NCBI RefSeq assembly: GCF_000168975.1
Contig: NZ_AAUW01000015.1
Coordinates: forward strand, 62,001 to 126,000
Source: Roseibium aggregatum IAM 12614
GTDB taxonomy: Bacteria; Pseudomonadota; Alphaproteobacteria; Rhizobiales; Stappiaceae
Length of the DNA stretch: 64,000 bases
Reading direction: 5' to 3'
Position numbers and translations under genes: made by a program. The notes under the pieces are model-generated. The model did no database searches, was not told the origin of the DNA, and saw nothing but the letters and a program-made list of their open reading frames with translations. Shown one piece after another: positions 5,963-32,043 of this stretch; the stretch's first letter is position 1, and every line of letters begins with the position of its first letter.

Positions 5963-7537
5963 TCAGGCGCTCAGAGCCAGTTCGGATCGTGCCAGCACTT
6001 TCCCGGCCAGACGCCGGATCCGATCCGGCTCCGGATGGTGGTCCGCTTTCTCGGCCATCCGTGCCCACAGGACTTTCAAGAGGGTCGCGCTTGTCACTTT
6101 CATGAAGTCATGCGCCAGAGCGGTCGGATCCTCGCTCTGCAACAATTGCTCGCGCGCATGGCACCAGTGGGCAACCACCTCGCTCAATTGATGATAAGCC
6201 GTGTCGTTGCGCTGGCATTCGGCGCGCAGGAAATCCTCGAAGGCCTTGCCTTCCTTGCCCGGCAGCAGGCGCGTGACCAGCGCCCGTTCGTGAATGGCGT
6301 TGGCGCCTTCATAGATCGCGGTGATCCGCACATCCCGGTAGCACTGCTCCAGGAAATATTCCTTCAGGTAGCCATAACCACCCAGCACCTGCATGCCGAG
6401 TTCGGTTGCCTGCATCCCGGCCTGTGTGCAGAAGGTCTTGGCAATCGGGGTCAGGAATTCCGCCAGGGCCCGGTTCTCGCCCGCCTCGACCGTCACCAGC
6501 GCCAGATGCGCGATGGCCCGGCCACCGAGAGCAAGGGCGTCGATCTCGTCCAGCATGCGCCGGACATCGACATGGCCGTCCAGCGTCACAGGCTTGCCTG
6601 CAGCGTCCCGGCCCTGCTTGCGCTCTGCCGCATAGGCGCTGGCAATGTCCGCGGCGCGGGCGGCATGGGCAACCCCCTGCAAGGCCACGTCCACGCGGGC
6701 GTGGTTCATCATCGTGAACATTGCCTTCAGGCCCTCGCCTTCCCGGCCGATCAGTTCGGCCATGGCCCCGTCGAAGGCAAGCTGGCAGGTGGGGGAGGCA
6801 TGGAGGCCCATCTTTTCCTCGATGCGGGTCACGGTCACCGCATTGCGGCTGCCGTCCGCACGGGTGCACGGGCATAGAAACAGCGACAGGCCCTTCACGC
6901 CCTCGTCCGACGTGCGCGCCAGCACCAGGTGATAGATCTTCTCGCTCATGTCCTGATCGCCGCCGGAAATGAAGATCTTCTCACCGCTGATCGACCAGCC
7001 ATCACCAGCCTGCACAGCCCGGCAGCGGATGCGGGACAGATCGGACCCGGCGTCCGGTTCGGTCAGGCACATGGTGGCCAGCGCTTCACCGGATGCAAAT
7101 TGCGGGATCACCCGTGCCTGCTGATCTTCGGTTCCGAAGGCAAGCAGGGTGCGGGCGGCTCCGGCCGCAAGGCTCGTCACCATCTGCAGACTGTGATTGG
7201 CACCGGTGAAGATCTCCGAAGTGATCGCAAGAGCGCCAGCATCGAGCCCCTGCCCGCCAAGCTGTTCCGGGATCGTCAGCCCCGGCCAGCCCTGCTCCGC
7301 ATAGGCGGCATAGGCCTCGCGGAACCCGTCCGGCATCTGCACCCGCCCCTCCACCAGCCGGCAGCCCTGGCTGTCGCCCGGTTCGTTCAAGGGGGCCAGC
7401 TGCTCCTCGGCGAAGGCGGCGAAATGACCGCCGATCTCGGCGGCAAGCTCTGCATCGAAGTCCGGCAGATCCGCCGCCCCGGCAACATAGGTCAGGCAGA
7501 ACAGGATATCGTCAAGCGGTGCGGCAAAGGGTTTCAT
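5963..7537 (-). CDS. Acyl-CoA dehydrogenase
   Basis: A 524-aa FAD-dependent acyl-CoA dehydrogenase that would put a 2,3-double bond into an acyl-CoA. Family marks: MCLTEPDAGSDLSRIRCRA (FAD/substrate loop), EKIFISGGDQDM, EEKMGLHASPTCQLAFD, QVLGGYGYLKEY, and RITAIYEGANAIHERAL, whose Glu sits where catalytic Glu residues of FadE/DmdC-type enzymes lie. Placed at the 3' end of the hydroxycinnamate cluster, it could desaturate dihydro-hydroxycinnamoyl-CoA, as proposed for actinobacterial phenylpropionate clusters. A 106-bp RIME repeat separates it from the DUF3237 gene, so it may be transcribed separately. The ribosome-binding site is weak. Confidence 0.9.
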   Translation of the reverse strand: MKPFAAPLDDILFCLTYVAGAADLPDFDAELAAEIGGHFAAFAEEQLAPLNEPGDSQGCRLVEGRVQMPDGFREAYAAYAEQGWPGLTIPEQLGGQGLDAGALAITSEIFTGANHSLQMVTSLAAGAARTLLAFGTEDQQARVIPQFASGEALATMCLTEPDAGSDLSRIRCRAVQAGDGWSISGEKIFISGGDQDMSEKIYHLVLARTSDEGVKGLSLFLCPCTRADGSRNAVTVTRIEEKMGLHASPTCQLAFDGAMAELIGREGEGLKAMFTMMNHARVDVALQGVAHAARAADIASAYAAERKQGRDAAGKPVTLDGHVDVRRMLDEIDALALGGRAIAHLALVTVEAGENRALAEFLTPIAKTFCTQAGMQATELGMQVLGGYGYLKEYFLEQCYRDVRITAIYEGANAIHERALVTRLLPGKEGKAFEDFLRAECQRNDTAYHQLSEVVAHWCHAREQLLQSEDPTALAHDFMKVTSATLLKVLWARMAEKADHHPEPDRIRRLAGKVLARSELALSA

Positions 7538-8219: not shown

Positions 8220-9088
8220 GCCAGCCCCAGCAGCCTTGCCGCATTGCCCTTGATGATGTCCGGCCGCAGCTCGTCCTTGATCGCGATCTTCTCGAAATCC
8301 GCCAGCCAGCGCTCCGGCGTGATCATCGGCCAGTCGGAGCCGAACAGCACCTTCTTCTTCAGGATCGAGTTGCAGTATTTGACCAGGATTTCCGGGAAAT
8401 ACTTCGGCGACCAGCCGGAGAGATCAATATAGACATTCGGCTTGTGCTGGGCGACCGCCAGGGCTTCTTCCTGCCAGGGGAAGGAAGGATGCGCGAGGAT
8501 GATCTTCATGTCGGGGAAATCGACCGCGACATCGTCCATATACATCGGGTTGGAGTATTTCAGCCGCATGCCGTTGCCACCGCGCATGCCACTGCCGACA
8601 CCTGTCTGGCCGGTGTGAAACAGCGCAATGGAACCTTCTTCCGCAATCGCTTCATAGAGCTCGTAGGCCATGCGGTCGTTCGGGTAAAAGCCCTGCATCG
8701 TCGGATGGAACTTGAAGCCCTTGATGCCGAAATCCTTCATCAGGCGCCGCGCCTCGCGCGCACCCATCTTGCCCTTGTGCGGATCGATGGAGGCAAAGGG
8801 GATCAGCACATCGTCGTTTTCGGCGGCAAGCTCGGCCACTTCCTCGTTCTTGTAGCGACGGTAGCCGGTCTCGCGTTCCGCATCGACCGGGAAAATCACC
8901 GCCGCGATGTTCTGCTCGCGGTAGTGGGCCGCCGTTTCCGGCACAGTCGGCGGATGGCTCCAGGGTGCGCGGAAGTATTTCGCCATCGTCGCCTGCAGGT
9001 CATCATAGCCATCATCGGAATGGCAGCCGCAGGGTTCCTCGGCGTGGGTATGGATGTCGATGGCGCGAACCTTGGTGATATCGACCAT
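8216..9088 (-). CDS. Amidohydrolase-family hydrolase, likely hydroxyphenyl-beta-ketoacyl-CoA hydrolase
   Basis: A 290-aa TIM-barrel metal-dependent hydrolase (amidohydrolase 2, COG2159). Metal and active-site motifs are visible: IDIHTHAEEP (residues 10-19), KGFKFHPTMQGFYP, ALFHTGQTG, ILAHPSFPW and LFGSDWPMITPE. In actinobacterial p-coumarate/ferulate clusters (phd, cou) a member of this family is thought to split the beta-ketoacyl-CoA hydrolytically, replacing a thiolase. The gene order here, with feruloyl-CoA synthase, crotonase and SDR and no thiolase, supports the same role. It lies 16 nt from the CoA synthase gene. Confidence 0.85.
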   Translation of the reverse strand: MVDITKVRAIDIHTHAEEPCGCHSDDGYDDLQATMAKYFRAPWSHPPTVPETAAHYREQNIAAVIFPVDAERETGYRRYKNEEVAELAAENDDVLIPFASIDPHKGKMGAREARRLMKDFGIKGFKFHPTMQGFYPNDRMAYELYEAIAEEGSIALFHTGQTGVGSGMRGGNGMRLKYSNPMYMDDVAVDFPDMKIILAHPSFPWQEEALAVAQHKPNVYIDLSGWSPKYFPEILVKYCNSILKKKVLFGSDWPMITPERWLADFEKIAIKDELRPDIIKGNAARLLGLA

Positions 9089-9104
9089 TTCAAGCGCTCC
9101 TCAA

Positions 9105-10919
9105 TCAGAGTGTGACCACAGCCGGGTCATCGTCTTTGTAAAGCCGTTCCAGCAGCCGCTCGCGGCGTGACAGAACCTTGCGGATGTTCAAATTGCCCTT
9201 GGCGGTCATTTCGCCTTCCGGCATGGAGGCCGGCACAGACAGAACGATGGCGCGGGACACCAGCGTCGAGCTGCCGCTGATTTCGCGGGCACGGGCACTG
9301 AGCCGCCGGTGGAGTTCCCCCTGCAGCAGCTTGCAACGGAACGCGCCGTCGTCATCTTGCAGGTCGAACCCTTCCCGCTTCAGTTCCCCGAGGTTGGGGA
9401 AGATCATGACGCCGATCTGCTGGCGGTCGGCGCCGGTGATGATCAGATCGGAGGCAAGCGGCGCGAGGCGGGACAGCATGTCGAGCTTCAGTTGTGCCGC
9501 CCTTACCCAGGTGCCGGACTGCAGCTTGAAGTCCTCCGATATCCGGCCATCAAAACGCATGCCCTTGTTCGGGTCTGCCGGGTCGAGGAACAGCATCGCG
9601 TCTCCGGTGATGAAGAACCCTTCTTCATCGAAGGCGGCGGCCGTCTTCTCCGGATCGTTGAAGTAGCCCGGCATGATGTTGGGGCCCTTCACCCGGACTT
9701 CGCAGCGCATGTCCGCATCCGGGATCAACTTGACGGTGACCCCGTTCACCGGAACGCCGACAATGCCGGAATGCGGTGCCGGTTCCTGCTGCATAAGGGC
9801 TGAGGGTGCAGTTTCTGTAAGCCCCCAGGAAGAGGTCATCAACGGCACCTCGCCCTTGACCTCCATCGCCATGCGCTCGAACCCGGACCAGACCTCCTGC
9901 GGCAGCGAAGCCCCGGCGTAGAAGATCAGGTCCAGATCCTCGAAGAAGCGGTGACGCAGGTCCGCATCTGCCTCCAGTGCCTTCAGCAGCATGCCGAAGC
10001 CGAGCGGCACGTTGAACACCAGCGTGCCGGTCTTGAGTGTCAGGTTCTCGATCGTGCGCTCGAACAGGCCCTTCACCGGCTTGCCGTCGTCGATATAGAA
10101 ACTGCCGCCATTGGCCAGCATCATGTTGAAATTGTGCGAGCCGCCGAAGACGTGGTTCCAGGGCAGCCAGTCGACGATCACCGGCGGACGCTTGCGCAGG
10201 AACGGCAACGAGTCGGCAAGCTGGACCTGGTTAACGCACATCATCCGGTGGGTGGTCAGCACACCCTTCGGGCTGGAGGTCGAGCCCGAGGTCATCAGGA
10301 TCTTGCCGACCGTATCCGGCGTGACGGCTGCAAAAGCGCTGTCGACATCGACGCTGCCATCACCTTTCAGGAGATCGGCGAAAGTGGTGACGCTTCGGCT
10401 GCCTGCCCTGCTGGCGACAATCTCGACGTGCGCCAGTTCCTCAAGGTTCAGTGCTTCTCCATATTGTTCTGCATCGACCACATAGGCCATTTTCGGCTTG
10501 ATCAGGTTGATCGCCTCGCGCAGGCGGCCATGGGCACCGTGGATGAGCGAATACTGCTCGGCCACCGGTACCACCGGCACACCGACGTATTGCGCGGCAA
10601 GCGCAAGAATGCCGTGATCGACACCATTGCCGGACATGATCAGGATCGGTGTATCGGCCCCCATGCCCCTTGCCAGAAGCGCGGCGCCAACAACCCGAAC
10701 CTTTTCCAGAACACCGGCATAGCGTTCCTCCCGCCAGCCTGCGCCGCTGCGCTCGGCCAGAAACACCCGCTCCGGGGCCTCTTGAGCCCATTGGTGCAGC
10801 CAGTCACCCGTCCGGTCTGCCACCGGGCCGAGCGGATAGGTCGACCGCAGCAGGATGGTGCCGTCCGGCCGGTCTTCCCGCTCGACCGAATGGCGCAAAA
10901 ATTCTTTCGTGCGCTTCAT
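9105..10919 (-). CDS. fcs: Feruloyl-CoA synthase / hydroxycinnamate-CoA ligase
   Basis: A 604-aa adenylate-forming CoA ligase that would activate ferulate, p-coumarate or caffeate. Motifs: MTSGSTSSPKGVLTTH (AMP-binding loop, residues 209-224), DWLPWNHVFGGSHNF, the feruloyl-CoA synthase signature; SSWGLTETAPSAL; GFFITGDAMLFLDP; and the C-terminal RISEDFKLQSGTWV, where family members carry FKL(A/S)(S/T)GTWV. Length fits the family (about 600 aa). It is the entry step of the pathway encoded between 5963 and 12977 and the most specific pointer to aromatic substrates in this region. Confidence 0.93.
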   Translation of the reverse strand: MKRTKEFLRHSVEREDRPDGTILLRSTYPLGPVADRTGDWLHQWAQEAPERVFLAERSGAGWREERYAGVLEKVRVVGAALLARGMGADTPILIMSGNGVDHGILALAAQYVGVPVVPVAEQYSLIHGAHGRLREAINLIKPKMAYVVDAEQYGEALNLEELAHVEIVASRAGSRSVTTFADLLKGDGSVDVDSAFAAVTPDTVGKILMTSGSTSSPKGVLTTHRMMCVNQVQLADSLPFLRKRPPVIVDWLPWNHVFGGSHNFNMMLANGGSFYIDDGKPVKGLFERTIENLTLKTGTLVFNVPLGFGMLLKALEADADLRHRFFEDLDLIFYAGASLPQEVWSGFERMAMEVKGEVPLMTSSWGLTETAPSALMQQEPAPHSGIVGVPVNGVTVKLIPDADMRCEVRVKGPNIMPGYFNDPEKTAAAFDEEGFFITGDAMLFLDPADPNKGMRFDGRISEDFKLQSGTWVRAAQLKLDMLSRLAPLASDLIITGADRQQIGVMIFPNLGELKREGFDLQDDDGAFRCKLLQGELHRRLSARAREISGSSTLVSRAIVLSVPASMPEGEMTAKGNLNIRKVLSRRERLLERLYKDDDPAVVTL

Positions 10920-25679: not shown

Positions 25680-26756
25680 ATGGCGGATTTCAGCGCTCAG
25701 ATTGAAAAATCGAAAAAGGAAGTGGCCGCCGCAAGGCAGAAGATCGACGAGCTGACCTCGAAGATCGAAACTGCAAAGTCCAAACTGGACACCGGCCAGG
25801 ATATTTCAATCGACATCGAGAACGCGTCCCTGGACGATGTGCACAAGCACACCGAGCTCATGGGCGCCAATATCGCCGAGCTGATCATGGGTCTTGACGA
25901 TGTCACCGCAACCTTTTCCAAGGACTTCGATGCCATGCGCACGAAGACCGGATGGGAAAACTTCATCGGCATCTTTTCCAAGCAGCGCTCCGACAGCATC
26001 CGCCAGGAACGCATGCGCTCCGCCAGCATCGACGACAAGCTGCAGGACCTGATTTCCAAATCCAATGTCATCGGCCAGTTGTTGCAGGAACAGCTCAGCA
26101 CGCTGAACGAACATTCCAAGCGCGTGGAAGCCAACCTCAGCGAGACGCTGGCCCAGCGCGAACAGACCGTCAGCACGCTGGAAGAGATCAAGGCCAAGCT
26201 GATCGCGATGGATCCGGACGTGATTGCACTGGAAAACAAGATTTCCATGGAAACCGACGCGGCCACGCGCACCAAGCTGGAAAGCCAGCTTGCCGCGATG
26301 AACGCCGAATACAACCGCCTTGCCCAGGAAGAACAGGTCAAGCTTGCCGAAAGCCAGACGCTGGAACGTTACATAGAAAAGGGCAAGACCTGGGTCGACA
26401 GCCTGCAGAACCAGGCAGCCACCCAGATGGTGCTGATCAACAAGCTGCAGACGGACACCAAGCAGCGCGTCGTGCTCTACGATGCGCTTGTGAAGTCGCT
26501 CAAGACGGCGCAGCAACAGGACATTGCCCACAAGATCAACGAGATCGGCGTCGCTACCGACAAGGAAGCCCAGTCCGCGATGGCGGCCATCGGCTCGGCA
26601 ACCAACCAGCGCATGGCCGACATGATGGAGGCCCACGAGGATCACATGGTGTTCGCCCGCAAGGTGCTGGAAGAAAAGGCCAAGTCGGACGAGCGCTTCG
26701 CCCGACGCTTCCAGCAGATCGTCGAGAAGCACGACAAGAACACGTACGGGGCCTGA
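25680..26756 (+). CDS. Long coiled-coil protein, possibly TelA-like, of the AAA+ operon
   Basis: A 358-aa soluble protein without signal peptide or membrane segment. Start ATG follows GGAAGGGG. Residues 1-40 (IEKSKKEVAAARQKIDELTS), 110-215 and 270-345 show heptad-like charged and hydrophobic patterns, so it is mostly alpha-helical coiled coil. The layout recalls TelA/toxic-anion-resistance proteins, but no decisive motif is visible. It is the first gene of a five-gene operon with an AAA+ ATPase (11 nt to the next gene) and may be a scaffold or an ATPase substrate. Function unknown. Confidence 0.85.
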   Translation: MADFSAQIEKSKKEVAAARQKIDELTSKIETAKSKLDTGQDISIDIENASLDDVHKHTELMGANIAELIMGLDDVTATFSKDFDAMRTKTGWENFIGIFSKQRSDSIRQERMRSASIDDKLQDLISKSNVIGQLLQEQLSTLNEHSKRVEANLSETLAQREQTVSTLEEIKAKLIAMDPDVIALENKISMETDAATRTKLESQLAAMNAEYNRLAQEEQVKLAESQTLERYIEKGKTWVDSLQNQAATQMVLINKLQTDTKQRVVLYDALVKSLKTAQQQDIAHKINEIGVATDKEAQSAMAAIGSATNQRMADMMEAHEDHMVFARKVLEEKAKSDERFARRFQQIVEKHDKNTYGA

Positions 26757-26767
26757 GGGTCTGAACG

Positions 26768-27901
26768 GTGGATCTGACCCTGGACCACAGAACCCTGGAA
26801 GAAGCGCATGAAACACGGCGCTACTTCGCCAAGTTCGAGCGGATCATCTCGCATTTGCAGGGCGTCGCGGAAAGCGTCATCAACGAGAACACGGCGCTTC
26901 CGACGGAAATTCCGATTCTGAAGGAATATCTGGAAGCGCTGTCGGGCACCTTTACGGCGCTTTCCTACAAATACCTTCTGGCGGGCCGCGTCTCGGACAT
27001 GCTGCCCTCGCTCCTGAACATCGACCGGCAGGACAGCGGCTTCCCGATCTATCAGGAGCTGCTGCAGATGGCGAATGACGCCATGCAGGCGGACAAGCAT
27101 TTGCGCTCGCTGCCGACGATGCGCGAGCTGAAGCTGGAAATGGTCAACCATATCCTGCGCGAGCAGTCGTCGCCGACCAACCTGCAATTTGCCGCCTCTC
27201 AGCGCCAGTATTATGAGGAACTCGCCAAGGGGGCACTGTTCTGGGCGCGGAATGACCCGCGTCTGGCCTGGATGGGCAACGTCGCAGACAACCGGCGTCT
27301 GTACCGGCTGCACTGGGCGGTTTACGACAGCCAGCAGAACATTCCGCTGATCTACATTCTCGACCTGGAAGATAGCGGCAAGTGGCCCTTGGCCAAGGAC
27401 GAACGCCGCTGGCCGCGTGTCCAGAGCCACCTGACCGCGCAATCCGCTGCCTCGCTCAAGCTGGTGACGATCGCGCGTGGTTTCGACCGCGACTTCGACG
27501 ACCTGCACCCAAAACGCCTGCGCCGGTTCTTTCTGGGCCCGATGTACAGCCACACGTTCACCCAGCAGTCCGGACCGTTGCGCGATGTGCTGGCCGAAGT
27601 CGCCGGCAAGCCGGGTGAGGACTGGGCTCTTGCCTGGACGACCGAGACGCTGGTGGCCTCCGGCTCAGAGTTCGAATCCGCCGGCTTTTTCTCGTCCGTC
27701 GAGCGGCAGATCTACCAGCTCGATCCGCTGTCGGCCCAAAGCCCCGCGTCGCAGGACGTGGCCGGCCATAGCCACCAGCAGCGGTCGCTCATTTTGCCCC
27801 AGCGGCCCTATCAGGTCCTGGAAGAGCGCAACCCGCCGGGCTTTGCCAACATCCGCAAATATGCCGTCAGCCCTTCGGGCAAGATCCTCAGTTACAAATA
27901 G
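26768..27901 (+). CDS. Protein of unknown function in the AAA+ operon
   Basis: A 377-aa soluble protein starting at GTG 26768 (GAGGG upstream). I do not recognise a family. Residues 1-135 look helical (HRTLEEAHETRRYFAKFERI), then a mixed alpha/beta part with NVADNRRLYRLHWAVYDSQQ, IPLIYILDLEDSGKWPL and LKLVTIARGFDRDFDDLHPK, followed by LRRFFLGPMYSHTFTQQSGP. The C-terminal 60 residues are Gln/Pro/Ser rich. It has no signal peptide or membrane segment. It lies between the coiled-coil gene (11 nt) and the ATPase gene (9 nt), so co-expression is near certain. Confidence 0.85.
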   Translation: MDLTLDHRTLEEAHETRRYFAKFERIISHLQGVAESVINENTALPTEIPILKEYLEALSGTFTALSYKYLLAGRVSDMLPSLLNIDRQDSGFPIYQELLQMANDAMQADKHLRSLPTMRELKLEMVNHILREQSSPTNLQFAASQRQYYEELAKGALFWARNDPRLAWMGNVADNRRLYRLHWAVYDSQQNIPLIYILDLEDSGKWPLAKDERRWPRVQSHLTAQSAASLKLVTIARGFDRDFDDLHPKRLRRFFLGPMYSHTFTQQSGPLRDVLAEVAGKPGEDWALAWTTETLVASGSEFESAGFFSSVERQIYQLDPLSAQSPASQDVAGHSHQQRSLILPQRPYQVLEERNPPGFANIRKYAVSPSGKILSYK

Positions 27902-27910
27902 GTTTTCCGC

Positions 27911-29860
27911 GTGACCCTTTCCAACGATCTCATGGAACTCAAAGAAGACAAGATCCGCGAGAAATACGTCTTTGCGGAAGCGATGCTGCAGGGGTTCGAC
28001 CACACGCCCCGTATCGCCAGGAAATCCGAAGCCCCAGTTGCCCAGGAGCGCTCCCCCGGACTTGGTGCCCGCCGTCGTTTCCGCTCCACGACGCCCGGCC
28101 TCGTTACACGCTCCACCGCCCGTCCGGAAGGCGTGCAGCTTTCGGCCCGCATCCTGGATTGTGACGACGACGCCCTGACCACGCCGACCCAGGCCAGCGT
28201 CCTCCAGTCCCTGCGCCGGGCGCTGGCTGTTGCCCAGGTGACCGCCGACCAGTTTGCCGAACAGAGCGGCCTTGCCGAGCTGAAACGCGCCAATCTTTCC
28301 GGAACTCTGGACGCCTCGCAGAAGGTGCGGTTCCAGGACCTCTTGTCGGCAACGGCCATGATCGCGCTTCATGTCTTCGCCAACATGACCGATTTCCTCT
28401 TGTCCGGTCTCTCGACCGACGCCGGTGAGATCGACATCCAGAGCGGTGAGGTCGAGGAAATTCTGTTCGACAACGACCAGCTTGCGCTTCATGGCGTCCT
28501 TTGGGAGCTGGACCAGGAAATTGCCGCCGCCGCGATTGAAGCCGACGCCCAGCTCATCGGTCTGGTCACCTCCTTCTGCGAACAGCTGATGGAAAAGGTA
28601 ACGCTGCGCGCGGAAGGCGTCAGCGTATTGCATCCGTTCTCGCAAAGCCGCTACCGGGTGGAAGCGGACAATTTCGAGATCACCGGCTTTACGCCCTCCG
28701 CGCGCGCGCGCTCCACGACGCTCGCCATGGCGTTCAAGAAACCGGAAGAAGTCGTCGGCAACCACATCGCCAAATACCAAGCGATGAAACTTGCCAAGAT
28801 GCTGATGGCCTATGATTTCGACCGCAAGCTCAACCCGTTCGCGGAGCTCGGCGGCTTCATCTTCACCTTCATGGGTGACGGCAAGCCGGGCACCGGCAAG
28901 ACCACCTTGATCCAGATGATGGCCGGTTTGGTCAACGACTATTGCCAGGTCGCCGGTTATCCGTTCCGCTACCAGAACCTCTCCACCGAGAGCATCGACA
29001 GCTACCAGGGCAAGTCGGCCCAGAACGCCAAGGCCTTCATCCGCAACGTCACCGACCCGAATGTGATCGGCTTCGGCACCATCGACGACATCGACCAGCT
29101 TGCCGGCAAGCGCGGCGACCGCCAGTCCTCCGCCGGGCAGCTGGAAATCACCGCTGTCCTGATGGAAAGCTTCGCCGGAGCCAACACCGTGGTGCGCGGC
29201 AACTGCACCTTCGGCATGTTCTCCAACTATCCGGAAAACGTCGACGATGCTCTGCGCCAGCGCGCGGGGGCCCGCTTTCTGGTCGACGGTCCGCAGACCC
29301 GCGAGGACTACATCGACATCCTGCATCTGCTGATGGGCAAGAACCACTCGATCCCGGTCGGCGACCATGACCTTTTCGAAGCACAGGCCCTGAAGAAGGC
29401 AGTTGCCGCGTCCTACGACCGCCACTCGCGGCCACAGGAAGACGCCTTGATCAAGGTGTTTGACGCAGTGCAGTCGGATATCGGGGACCTTAACACCATC
29501 GCCAAGCTCGGCACCTACCTGAAAGCCATCCAGCAGGCGGACGAACGTTTCACCGGCCGCGCGATCAAGAACATCACCGATGCGGTGAAGGTGCGGGCGA
29601 TGGATTTCGAACTGCCGGACGAATGGATGGAAGATCCCGAGCTGTTCCTGTTCAAGGATTACGAGACCAAGAAGGCGATGATCGCCGACCTGGCGCAGCC
29701 GATCACCGTCAACATGGTCATTCAGGAAATCAACCGCTATGCGGACAGCGAGTTCCGCTATGCGGACAAGTCCGACGAGGTTGCCATCGAGAACGCCGTG
29801 CGCGAGATGCAGCGCATGGAAGAAGCCAAACGCCGTTACATGGAAATCACGCGCCGATGA
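27911..29860 (+). CDS. AAA+ family ATPase with large N-terminal domain
   Basis: A 649-aa ATPase starting at GTG 27911. The first ~300 residues have no recognised domain (Arg/Pro-rich 25-75, then helical). The AAA+ core shows Walker A GDGKPGTGKTTLIQMMAGLV (K330 in GKT), Walker B GFGTIDDIDQLAG (residues 388-400), a sensor-1-like CTFGMFSNYPENVDDALRQR and arginines at 449, 451 and 454 suited to an Arg finger. Residues 470-649 are helical (lid and C-terminal tail, EVAIENAVREMQRMEEAKRR). The next start overlaps its stop (ATGA). It could remodel or unfold partners from the same operon; this is inference. Confidence 0.9.
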   Translation: MTLSNDLMELKEDKIREKYVFAEAMLQGFDHTPRIARKSEAPVAQERSPGLGARRRFRSTTPGLVTRSTARPEGVQLSARILDCDDDALTTPTQASVLQSLRRALAVAQVTADQFAEQSGLAELKRANLSGTLDASQKVRFQDLLSATAMIALHVFANMTDFLLSGLSTDAGEIDIQSGEVEEILFDNDQLALHGVLWELDQEIAAAAIEADAQLIGLVTSFCEQLMEKVTLRAEGVSVLHPFSQSRYRVEADNFEITGFTPSARARSTTLAMAFKKPEEVVGNHIAKYQAMKLAKMLMAYDFDRKLNPFAELGGFIFTFMGDGKPGTGKTTLIQMMAGLVNDYCQVAGYPFRYQNLSTESIDSYQGKSAQNAKAFIRNVTDPNVIGFGTIDDIDQLAGKRGDRQSSAGQLEITAVLMESFAGANTVVRGNCTFGMFSNYPENVDDALRQRAGARFLVDGPQTREDYIDILHLLMGKNHSIPVGDHDLFEAQALKKAVAASYDRHSRPQEDALIKVFDAVQSDIGDLNTIAKLGTYLKAIQQADERFTGRAIKNITDAVKVRAMDFELPDEWMEDPELFLFKDYETKKAMIADLAQPITVNMVIQEINRYADSEFRYADKSDEVAIENAVREMQRMEEAKRRYMEITRR

Positions 29861-31224
29861 TGAGGCTCGTCAAACATGGCTTGATGTTCGGCAACCTTTA
29901 CGAGGTGTCCTCACCATCCATGGTCGCCCGCTACAACCGCGCGCTGGAACATCTGACCGGCAAGCGGACGGCACTTGAGGCCTTTCACATCGACATCTCC
30001 GGCTATTCGCCCGAGATCGGCGACGAGCTGGACGACGTTCATTACCTCAACCCCCATGGCTGCAACCGGCAATTCATCCTGCTGTCGATCGAGCAGAAGA
30101 CAGGACCGCTGCTGAACGCCCGGTTCTCCACCTCCCGTTCGATCCTGAAACGCTTCATCGAGGACAACGAAGAGCAGCTCTTTGCCCTGTCGATCCGCGA
30201 TTGTGTGGTCGGGGAACTGGTCAACTCGATCTATTCCATCTCCTCGCCGCAGGATCTTTTCTATATCCGGGCCATCGAGGTGGAGGCCGATACCGTCGGC
30301 GGACATTCAGAGGCGGGCGAGGAACTGGCCGACAAGATCGAGGCGTTCATGAGCGAGCCGGATGGCTGGTGGGACGATGTCCTGATTGCGGAGATGATCG
30401 AACTCTCCAAGCACACCGGCGACATCATCCGCACACCCTTGTCCATCAGCTCCAAAAGCTATGAGCAGGGCAACTTCTACACGTCCCACTTCGGCGGGCT
30501 GTATATCTTCCGAGATGTCAAGGAAACCGCCTGCATTGCCTCCAAACGCATGGACGTCGTCGTCGACCTGCCGGTGAAGCATCTCTTCAGTCTGGAAGAC
30601 CGCTATGAGGTCGCCGATTTCCTGAACCGCAACCAGCTAGTGGAGCCGATCCTCGACGCAGGCGGCGGCGTTGCCAGGAGCCTGTTGAAACAGAAACTCG
30701 ACTTCATCGTCATCGACACCGCCGCCAGCCAGGGCGAGGACCTGTCGGATGTCTCGCGGCGCGACCTGCGCGCGCTCCGACGCAAATATCACCAGCAGCT
30801 TCCGGCCGAGTATCATGCGCTCAACGAGATCGTGCAGCGGCTGGACCTGAAACCCGAAAAACTCTGGGTGGAACCGGAAAACGCGGCTTACTTCTACCTG
30901 CTGCGCTCGCGCAATCACCGCGACATGAACCTGGTCAACATGCTGCTGGCCGAATTGACGCCGCTTGACTTCCGCCAGCTTTTCATTTGTCACAAGGACG
31001 CCTTCTACGACCATTACCGCACCTGGAGCGAGGCCAAGAAGGTCTATGCGGCCCAGTTCCTGGCGGAAGAATATATGGTCGACAAGGTCGGCACGCGGCT
31101 GGAACTGTTCGGCCCGGAGGCCGGCATGGCGGAGGAAGACCAGGCTGACTACGGCTTTGGCAGGAACATGGGTCCGTGGGGTGCTATCCCCAGAGAACGA
31201 GACGGTGAGGACGGCGCGCGATGA
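29857..31224 (+). CDS. Protein of unknown function (455 aa) in the AAA+ operon
   Basis: Starts at ATG 29857 (a second ATG follows at 29860), overlapping the ATPase stop; the upstream extension of the frame is the shadow of the ATPase gene. No signal peptide or membrane segment. Recognisable stretches: LMFGNLYEVSSPSMVARYNR, EAFHIDISGYSPEIGDELDD, LNPHGCNRQFILLSIEQKTG, and a helical C-terminal half with DVSRRDLRALRRKYHQQLP. I cannot name a family. It overlaps the DUF1523 gene by 4 nt. Conserved-looking paired Asp/His residues near the N-terminus could bind metal or nucleotide, but this is only a guess. Confidence 0.88.
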   Translation: MMRLVKHGLMFGNLYEVSSPSMVARYNRALEHLTGKRTALEAFHIDISGYSPEIGDELDDVHYLNPHGCNRQFILLSIEQKTGPLLNARFSTSRSILKRFIEDNEEQLFALSIRDCVVGELVNSIYSISSPQDLFYIRAIEVEADTVGGHSEAGEELADKIEAFMSEPDGWWDDVLIAEMIELSKHTGDIIRTPLSISSKSYEQGNFYTSHFGGLYIFRDVKETACIASKRMDVVVDLPVKHLFSLEDRYEVADFLNRNQLVEPILDAGGGVARSLLKQKLDFIVIDTAASQGEDLSDVSRRDLRALRRKYHQQLPAEYHALNEIVQRLDLKPEKLWVEPENAAYFYLLRSRNHRDMNLVNMLLAELTPLDFRQLFICHKDAFYDHYRTWSEAKKVYAAQFLAEEYMVDKVGTRLELFGPEAGMAEEDQADYGFGRNMGPWGAIPRERDGEDGAR

Positions 31225-31889
31225 AGTGGATCAAATGGATAATCGGCATTCCGCTCCTGCTGATCCTTGTCGCTTTCCTCCACTACACTTTGCCCGGCCG
31301 CGACGTGGTGCGGATCGTCGGCACGGACGTCAAACGCATGGACATCGGTGCATCGTCCCTCTTCTGGGCCGCGCCTGACGCGGGCACCAACAAGAACTGG
31401 ACCCGGGACGTCCGCTTCATCAACACGGTCTGGCCCAACGGCAAGCCGAGGGTCTACCGCAATGAGGACACCGACTGGGGCTGGCCGCCCTATTTCAAGT
31501 TCGACAGCAGCAACATCACCGCCCAGGCGCAGGATCTGGCCAAGAAAAGCGACGATGTCTGGATTGCGGTCACCCATTATGGGTGGCGACTGGAACTGTT
31601 CACGATCTTTCCCAACGCCATCAGCATCGAGGTCGTCTCCGGCCCGGATGTTTTCCTGATCCCCTGGTTCAATATCCTGTTCATCGTGGTGCTGGTGGTT
31701 CTGGCCTACCTGATCATCAAGACCGTCAATGCCTTCAAGAAAAGCCGGATCGACCCCATGGTCGACGGCATCGACGACTTCATGGACGATGTCGGCGACA
31801 GCGCCGAACAGGCCCGCGCCAGCGCCCACCGCCGCGCGAGCGACGTCACAAGCGGGTTCCGCCGCTGGCTGAAACGCTGGTTCGGTTGA
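31221..31889 (+). CDS. DUF1523 family membrane protein
   Basis: A 222-aa protein with an N-terminal hydrophobic segment (residues 5-22, WIIGIPLLLILVAFLHYTLP) and a second membrane helix at about 145-168 (NILFIVVLVVLAYLIIKTVN). The part between (ARIV-like VVRIVGTDVKRMD, RVYRNEDTDWGWPPYFKFDS, AVTHYGWRLELFTIFPNAIS) matches DUF1523 and should be periplasmic. The cytoplasmic tail (170-222) is charged and amphipathic. As last gene of the AAA+ operon (4-nt overlap) it is the likely membrane anchor of the system. Function unknown. Confidence 0.9.
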   Translation: MKWIKWIIGIPLLLILVAFLHYTLPGRDVVRIVGTDVKRMDIGASSLFWAAPDAGTNKNWTRDVRFINTVWPNGKPRVYRNEDTDWGWPPYFKFDSSNITAQAQDLAKKSDDVWIAVTHYGWRLELFTIFPNAISIEVVSGPDVFLIPWFNILFIVVLVVLAYLIIKTVNAFKKSRIDPMVDGIDDFMDDVGDSAEQARASAHRRASDVTSGFRRWLKRWFG

Positions 31890-31935: not shown

Positions 31936-32043
31936 CCTCATCCTGAGGAAGCGCGACAGCGCTGTCTCGAAGGATGGGCCGCTTGCTCCCGAGTGTGCCG
32001 CCCATCCTTTGAGACGGACCTGACGGTCCTCCTCAGGATGAGG
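31936..32043. repeat. RIME-type mosaic palindrome, copy B
   Basis: A 108-bp element with the same outer arms (CCTCATCCTGAGGA / TCCTCAGGATGAGG) and inner arms (CTGTCTCGAAGGATGGGC / GCCCATCCTTTGAGACGG) as copy A at 7589-7694. It lies between the DUF1523 stop and the HAD gene start and could serve as a bidirectional structural terminator of the AAA+ operon. Confidence 0.85.

Follow-up and report, generated by a model that had tools for sequence, protein, structure and literature searches.

Analysis of a 64,000-nucleotide (nt) stretch of the Roseibium aggregatum IAM 12614 genome (6.56 Mb), the whole of which is referred to below as the window, showed a five-gene operon (genes 1 to 5) in which four genes for cytosolic proteins are kept together across genomes and the gene for the membrane protein is exchanged. 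The operon may encode an ATP-driven threading machine that acts on a membrane-tethered coiled-coil scaffold and works in the manner of Vps4 on ESCRT-III; this reading is the favoured one but is held tentatively, at somewhat less than an even chance. All features described below lie on the + strand of the window.

Gene 1 (25680..26756) codes for an all-helical coiled-coil protein of 358 amino acids (aa) that belongs to no family and is most conserved in its C-terminal half. Gene 2 (26768..27901; 377 aa, GTG start) codes for a helical N-domain (residues 1-155) followed by an alpha/beta C-domain, again with no family, and gene 3 (27911..29860; 649 aa, GTG start) for a classic AAA ATPase whose N-terminal ~290 residues are specific to its family. 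Gene 4 (29857..31224; 455 aa) codes for a DUF6638 protein with no membrane helix, and gene 5 (31221..31889; 222 aa) for a DUF1523 protein with predicted membrane helices at residues 6-24 and 144-162. The first three genes are separated by 11 and 9 nt, and the last two junctions are overlaps of 4 nt each. The five open reading frames (ORFs) had been described in an earlier reading of the bare sequence (the original prediction), and an ORF check bore out their positions, lengths, starts and spacings.

Pfam matches above cut-off were obtained for gene 3 (PF00004, E 6.7e-13, 49.7 bits against a cut-off of 21.2), gene 4 (PF20343/DUF6638, E 1e-181, 605 bits) and gene 5 (PF07509/DUF1523, E 4e-66, 222 bits), while genes 1 and 2 had no secure Pfam match; the coil matches of gene 1 in Pfam (GAS, EAD9 and Scm3) were weak and below their cut-offs. 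The ATPase and the DUF1523 protein were recognisable, as the original prediction had stated. Of its “two unknowns”, gene 2 remains without a secure family, but the other carries a Pfam name, since gene 4 matches PF20343, though a name without a function. Searches of the five proteins against NCBIfam, PADLOC and PHROGs gave AAA cross-matches and coiled-coil noise only, and no set of defence component models was matched in PADLOC. In the literature search, DUF6638 was found in no paper, and DUF1523 and DUF2333 were mentioned in passing only. Genes 4 and 5 and the membrane gene of Rhizobiaceae are clear members of DUF6638, DUF1523 and DUF2333 (PF10095), respectively; these are functionless names, none of them described as part of a system. 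Within Pfam, NCBIfam, PADLOC, PHROGs and the literature searched, the operon thus matches no described system, in agreement with the original prediction.

A neighbourhood search across other genomes, set beforehand as the test by which the unit could be refuted, showed that the homologues stay together. Loci were collected by gene 4, and at 21 of the 24 named loci genes 1 to 5 were found in identical order. The five-gene order was seen in Roseibium, Stappia, Sulfitobacter, Amylibacter, Kiloniella, Pseudaestuariivita, Wenxinia, Paracoccus and others, and its recurrence in more than 20 other genomes far exceeds chance. The nearest named locus was that of Stappia sp. BW2, with proteins 95-98% identical, and the named relatives were Stappia and Roseibium/Labrenzia. 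Two of the three exceptions (L048 and L050) were interrupted by contig ends, with genes 1 to 4 present before the end in L050, a Rhodospirillales metagenome-assembled genome. The third (L037) lacked a match to gene 1, and its gene 2 was truncated, perhaps through sequencing error or decay. The genes were tightly packed in Stappiaceae, and other lineages carried extra genes between some of them.

A search with gene 1 of 398 Pseudomonadota genomes gave 28 positive genomes, from Rhizobiaceae, Rhodobacteraceae and Stappiaceae together with one genome outside Alphaproteobacteria, and gene 2 adjoined gene 1 at all loci from this search except two Rhizobium loci. All five genes were present in genomes G415, G211 and G782, the first of which is gammaproteobacterial. 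Genes 1 to 4 were found together on pSymB of Sinorhizobium meliloti, where an endonuclease-like gene and a transposase separate genes 3 and 4, and on megaplasmids of 0.88-0.94 Mb in Vibrio vulnificus and V. parahaemolyticus. Shinella and Rhizobium leguminosarum pRlX5 carried genes 1 to 4 too, and the IMG/VR contig L104 (359 kb) had them with DUF2333 beside flagellar genes. The constant unit is genes 1 to 4, because Rhizobiaceae, Vibrio and contig L104 keep these four together. That the genes act together, as had been proposed, agrees with the order kept in Stappiaceae, Rhodobacterales, Kiloniella and Rhodospirillales and with the core of four in Rhizobiaceae and Vibrio. The five-gene unit of the original prediction was upheld as a recurring order but not as a whole conserved unit, its constant part being genes 1 to 4 and its membrane protein being exchangeable.

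The original prediction had also placed the operon in the core genome, which was refuted by its distribution. The operon was present in 24 of the 87 genomes of the family, comprising 23 of 45 genomes of the genus and 1 of 42 others, and gene 4 was above cut-off in only 5 of the 289 sampled Alphaproteobacteria (about 2%). The operon is an accessory module, not core genome. Its position within Roseibium is stable, partly syntenic with the window and among sugar-transport genes, and its surroundings differ elsewhere. This distribution is the pattern of an old module transferred as a unit or frequently lost. A phage origin was considered and rejected: no phage record with the ATPase was found, and contig L104 has the core but is probably bacterial because the core adjoins flagellar genes.

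Gene neighbourhood showed that the membrane partner is exchangeable, being either DUF1523 or DUF2333. Among the sampled Alphaproteobacteria, DUF1523 was found in 5 of 5 genomes that carry DUF6638 and in 4 of the 284 that do not (Fisher P 8e-9, uncorrected for phylogeny). DUF2333 stood directly after gene 4 in Sinorhizobium and Shinella (in Shinella, by similarity to the Sinorhizobium protein) and directly upstream of gene 1 on contig L104. Membrane helices lie near the N-terminus in both DUF1523 and DUF2333; a profile comparison of the two gave no similarity, and kinship between them was rejected on that ground. Outside Stappiaceae, a small gene of ~88-100 aa with two predicted membrane helices was nearly always found between genes 4 and 5 (L043-L054), and the Stappiaceae modules were without it.

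A diverged gene 1 followed by DUF2333 only was found at a shared thymidine-kinase locus in R. leguminosarum pSK03 and two Rhizobium-like genomes. In the region 49-116 of gene 1, these orphans retained 6-7 of the 9 residues invariant in complete modules, and the motif around MRxKTxxExFIGIFSKxR (residues 79-116, 25914..26027) was also kept in them next to DUF2333. The ALVKSLKTAQQQDIAHKINEIG region (residues 268-289, 26481..26546), a stretch of 22 residues strongly conserved in complete modules, was deleted in the orphans, which are without genes 2 to 4, and residues 245-358 were poorly kept. The simplest reading of these sequences is that residues 49-116 work with the membrane side and the C-terminal half with genes 2 to 4, with 268-289 as a candidate docking segment.

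Gene 3 is, by its motifs, a classic AAA ATPase of the protein-threading group. The nearest solved structures to its ATPase domain by sequence were the i-AAA protease, fidgetin-like 1, AFG2 and Vps4. The Walker A motif GxPGTGKT with K330 (28880..28903) is invariant, as is the sensor 1 Asn, N439. Pore loop 1 (Y365-Q366-G367, 29003..29011) aligns with the YVG of the i-AAA protease and was Y365-Q-G-K-S/T in 20 of 20 sequences. The same 20 sequences all had a Walker B motif ending in D392-D393 and not in Asp-Glu (29072..29089), and the arginine-finger candidates R449 and R451 (29255..29263). K330, D392/D393 and the arginine-finger candidates named in advance were thus present, and K330, D392/D393 and R449/R451/R455 were invariant in diverse relatives. 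Between the window and Kiloniella, the AAA core was 94% identical and the N-terminal ~280 residues about 57%, a divergence that would be expected of a partner-binding region.

In the proposed mechanism, gene 3 would form a cytosolic AAA ring in which Y365 of the pore loop pulls on a polypeptide. The likeliest substrate would be gene 1, with its C-terminal half as the best candidate part. Gene 1, a putative long helical hairpin, would form or join a scaffold on the cytoplasmic side of the inner membrane, and would be tethered to the membrane via a partner with a periplasmic domain, either DUF1523 (plus the two-helix protein, of 89 residues, in most lineages) or DUF2333. Residues ~49-116 of gene 1 would face this partner and residues ~268-289 the ATPase side (genes 2 to 4). 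Genes 2 and 4, which invariably accompany the ring, are read as probable obligatory adaptors or co-factors of the ATPase. Loading and dismantling in cycles may serve envelope maintenance or membrane remodelling, in the way that Vps4 works with ESCRT-III. Mean column identity was 84% for gene 1 over 23 sequences versus 80% for the ATPase, and such conservation appears high for a mere spacer.

This proposed manner of working has precedent: in bacteria, PspA/Snf7 coiled coils occur paired with AAA ATPases, a pairing read as ATP-dependent membrane remodelling (PMC11237479). The operon proteins cannot be assigned to the PspA/Snf7 family on its membership tests. For the remodelling machine suggested in the original prediction, the combination of coiled coil, AAA ATPase and membrane anchor fits and is plausible, and the envelope role is one that we infer. 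It is less likely than not, though possible, that the operon encodes a hitherto undescribed membrane-remodelling machine, parallel in function to ESCRT-III/Vps4, in which scaffold and adaptors are unrelated to theirs, four proteins form the cytosolic core and the inner-membrane partner can be swapped.

Several observations weigh against a threading machine that works on gene 1. The pulling of gene 1 by gene 3 is putative. The AlphaFold2 (AF2) model of gene 1, all helical with a long hairpin, is of low confidence (predicted local distance difference test, pLDDT, 66.6), and Foldseek and VIA gave generic helical matches only (MukF, syntaxin and ClyA-type). No Pfam match to PspA_IM30 or Snf7 was found at E 0.5 in 23 members of the gene 1 family. 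In hhalign, the comparison of gene 1 with PspA gave a probability of 10% (P 0.003); this exceeded the scores of 60 shuffles, but the match lay within a coiled-coil stretch. The comparison with TelA gave 7.5%, a score reached by shuffled controls. Kinship of gene 1 with PspA, Snf7 or TelA is accordingly not established by these sequence comparisons. For gene 3, no Pfam match to an MIT domain was found. The usual Walker B Asp-Glu is replaced in gene 3 by Asp-Asp in every relative, and natural variants of the motif exist. Where Asp replaces the catalytic Glu of Walker B, hydrolysis can be slow, NSF D2 being an example, and gene 3 could by this residue be a slow ATPase. No adjoining membrane gene was seen at the Vibrio and pRlX5 copies, and therefore the partner is possibly elsewhere or dispensable there. 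The loss of residues 268-289 in the orphans may be decay that followed the loss of a partner, in which case it does not specify which partner was bound.

The AF2 model of gene 2 is confident (pLDDT 85.5; predicted template modelling score, pTM, 0.85). Residues 165-316 (27260..27715) have the order strand-strand-helix-helix-strand-strand, which resembles the tunnelling fold (T-fold) with a weak structural match. In VIA-align, the best match of this C-domain was uricase, a weak one (Z 5.3, 123 residues, root-mean-square deviation 3.8), and the top rows were mostly T-fold proteins (uricase, FolB, 6-pyruvoyl tetrahydropterin synthase, GTP cyclohydrolase and QueF; Z <=5.3). Foldseek against the PDB and viral proteins gave nothing at E <0.001 (best E 0.28), and the profile of FolB, the sole T-fold family compared, gave P 0.34, with no T-fold Pfam match. 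The C-domain shares the order of strands and helices with the tunnelling-fold enzymes (uricase, FolB, 6-pyruvoyl tetrahydropterin synthase, GTP cyclohydrolase I and QueF), but the Z is weak, FolB is not similar in sequence, a catalytic site was not identified, and gene 2 has a helical N-domain and C-terminal strands in addition. The modelled likeness to the T-fold is a weak lead, not proof. A TelA signal in the helical N-domain was rejected as too weak (E 0.064 in 4 of 24 members; hhalign P 0.014), and comparison of genes 2 and 4 showed no kinship.

The gene 2 model bears on an unlikely alternative in which gene 3 acts as a chaperone to open or load gene 2, as Rubisco activases and MoxR proteins do for their clients; the T-fold-like domain of gene 2 would be a purine- or pterin-type enzyme or carrier, and gene 1 and the membrane protein would serve for localisation only. 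The T-fold order of elements in a confident model, the many invariant polar residues of gene 2 (D187, D211, D240, H247, R253 and Y260) and its constant position next to gene 3 are consistent with such an activase, whereas the fold is matched weakly in both VIA-align (Z 5.3) and Foldseek (E >=0.28), there is no FolB profile similarity (P 0.34), and the orphan pairs of gene 1 and DUF2333, as well as the strong conservation of gene 1, would be left unexplained. The same type of machine could also work on third-party envelope proteins, with gene 1 as a substrate-delivering adaptor, and so be an unfoldase for membrane-protein quality control. This is improbable: the module has no protease domain or protease gene, and the strict conservation of gene 1 suggests more than an adaptor, even though the nearest ATPase by sequence is a membrane i-AAA protease domain, the pore-loop motif is of the threading kind and the membrane partner is exchangeable.

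There is only a slim chance that the operon protects the cell from phage or envelope damage as a defence or stress-triggered system whose sensor or switch would be the ATPase and whose effector would be the membrane protein. The patchy distribution and the occurrence on Vibrio megaplasmids point towards it, as does a weak PADLOC match to TRIP13 (E 3e-6), which the common AAA domain accounts for; no other defence model matched, the window copy has no recognisable toxin or nuclease domain, and the stable position among sugar-transport genes in Roseibium and the high sequence conservation argue otherwise. It is very improbable that the operon organises the chromosome or another polymer, with gene 1 as a coiled coil of the SMC/MukF kind on which the ATPase would act, and with the membrane protein as anchor. 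The coiled coil of gene 1 matched an SMC model at E 0.14, and MukF and SMC were among its helical structure matches, but for helical proteins such matches are no more than noise, the operon encodes neither an ABC-type head nor a DNA-binding domain, and the ATPase belongs to the protein-threading AAA group.

Compared with known systems, the proposed threading machine can be set beside ESCRT-III/Vps4 and the archaeal CdvB/CdvC. In common with them it has a helical-hairpin protein, a classic AAA ATPase encoded alongside whose pore loop is aromatic, and likely work at the membrane. It differs from them in that gene 1 has no detectable Snf7 or PspA domain and gene 3 no recognised MIT, and in having DD and not DE in Walker B, the constant partners genes 2 and 4, and a membrane protein. 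The phage shock protein (PSP) system (PMC11237479) likewise has a coiled-coil protein, an ATPase and an inner-membrane partner in patchy operons; gene 1, however, has no PF04012 match, and the host genome has separate PspA-family genes. The literature search showed neither DUF6638 nor DUF1523 named in the PSP paper. TelA (PF05816) resembles gene 1 in length (~360-400 aa), in being all helical and in a similar W-E-x-x-x-G turn, but the profile match of gene 1 was no better than shuffles. Kinship with TelA was rejected, as a local match (P 0.0026) was lost under block shuffles and there was no PF05816 match; TelA was not found in the window genome or 30 relatives.

A palindromic repeat of ~108 bp (31936..32043) lies 3' of the operon, as part of its surroundings and not of the machine. 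The repeat gave 90 BLAST matches genome-wide, which represent ~45 places because many of the matches are a single place on both strands. The operon had been said to end in a RIME repeat; a palindromic repeated element is indeed present, but the name was not confirmed and RIME-like is the term used here. No Rfam match was found in 20-40 kb of the window, a sigma-70 scan gave no promoter match, and terminator counts were at chance level. Of the PspA-family genes in the window genome, a homologue on contig C43 (31598-32269, L147) has one in-frame TGA inside the matched region, and a second PspA-like gene is on contig C37.

Other copies of the module showed further features. In S. meliloti Ak57 (L055:14981-16144), an IS4-like element (ISRm16) lies between genes 3 and 4. 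A ChvI-bound DNA fragment has been reported inside S. meliloti SMc02733 (PMC3687685). By gene order near choX, SMc02733 is putatively gene 3; if it is, the module would be connected with the ExoS/ChvI envelope regulon. The Vibrio copies (L056 and L057) are near mfd, LysM and SIMPL-domain genes in a region almost identical in both species. The Paracoccus module (L054) has inserted genes at 8918-9436 and 6428-6988, one of which may, as judged by eye, resemble a YbjQ-type heavy-metal-binding domain.

An AAA ATPase with a coiled coil and a membrane partner is a known arrangement, and most of the parts here come from families of no known function. The five proteins are without known function and yet are co-inherited across two proteobacterial classes, among marine and root-nodule bacteria and some vibrios, including the laboratory model genus Sinorhizobium. 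The natural experiment in Rhizobium, where the scaffold and DUF2333 are kept and the ATPase side and residues 268-289 are lost, provides a direct mutational target. If the proposed machine is true, DUF6638, DUF1523, DUF2333 and the gene 1 family would all gain a testable role, and bacteria would have a further independent solution for the ATP-driven handling of membrane scaffolds.

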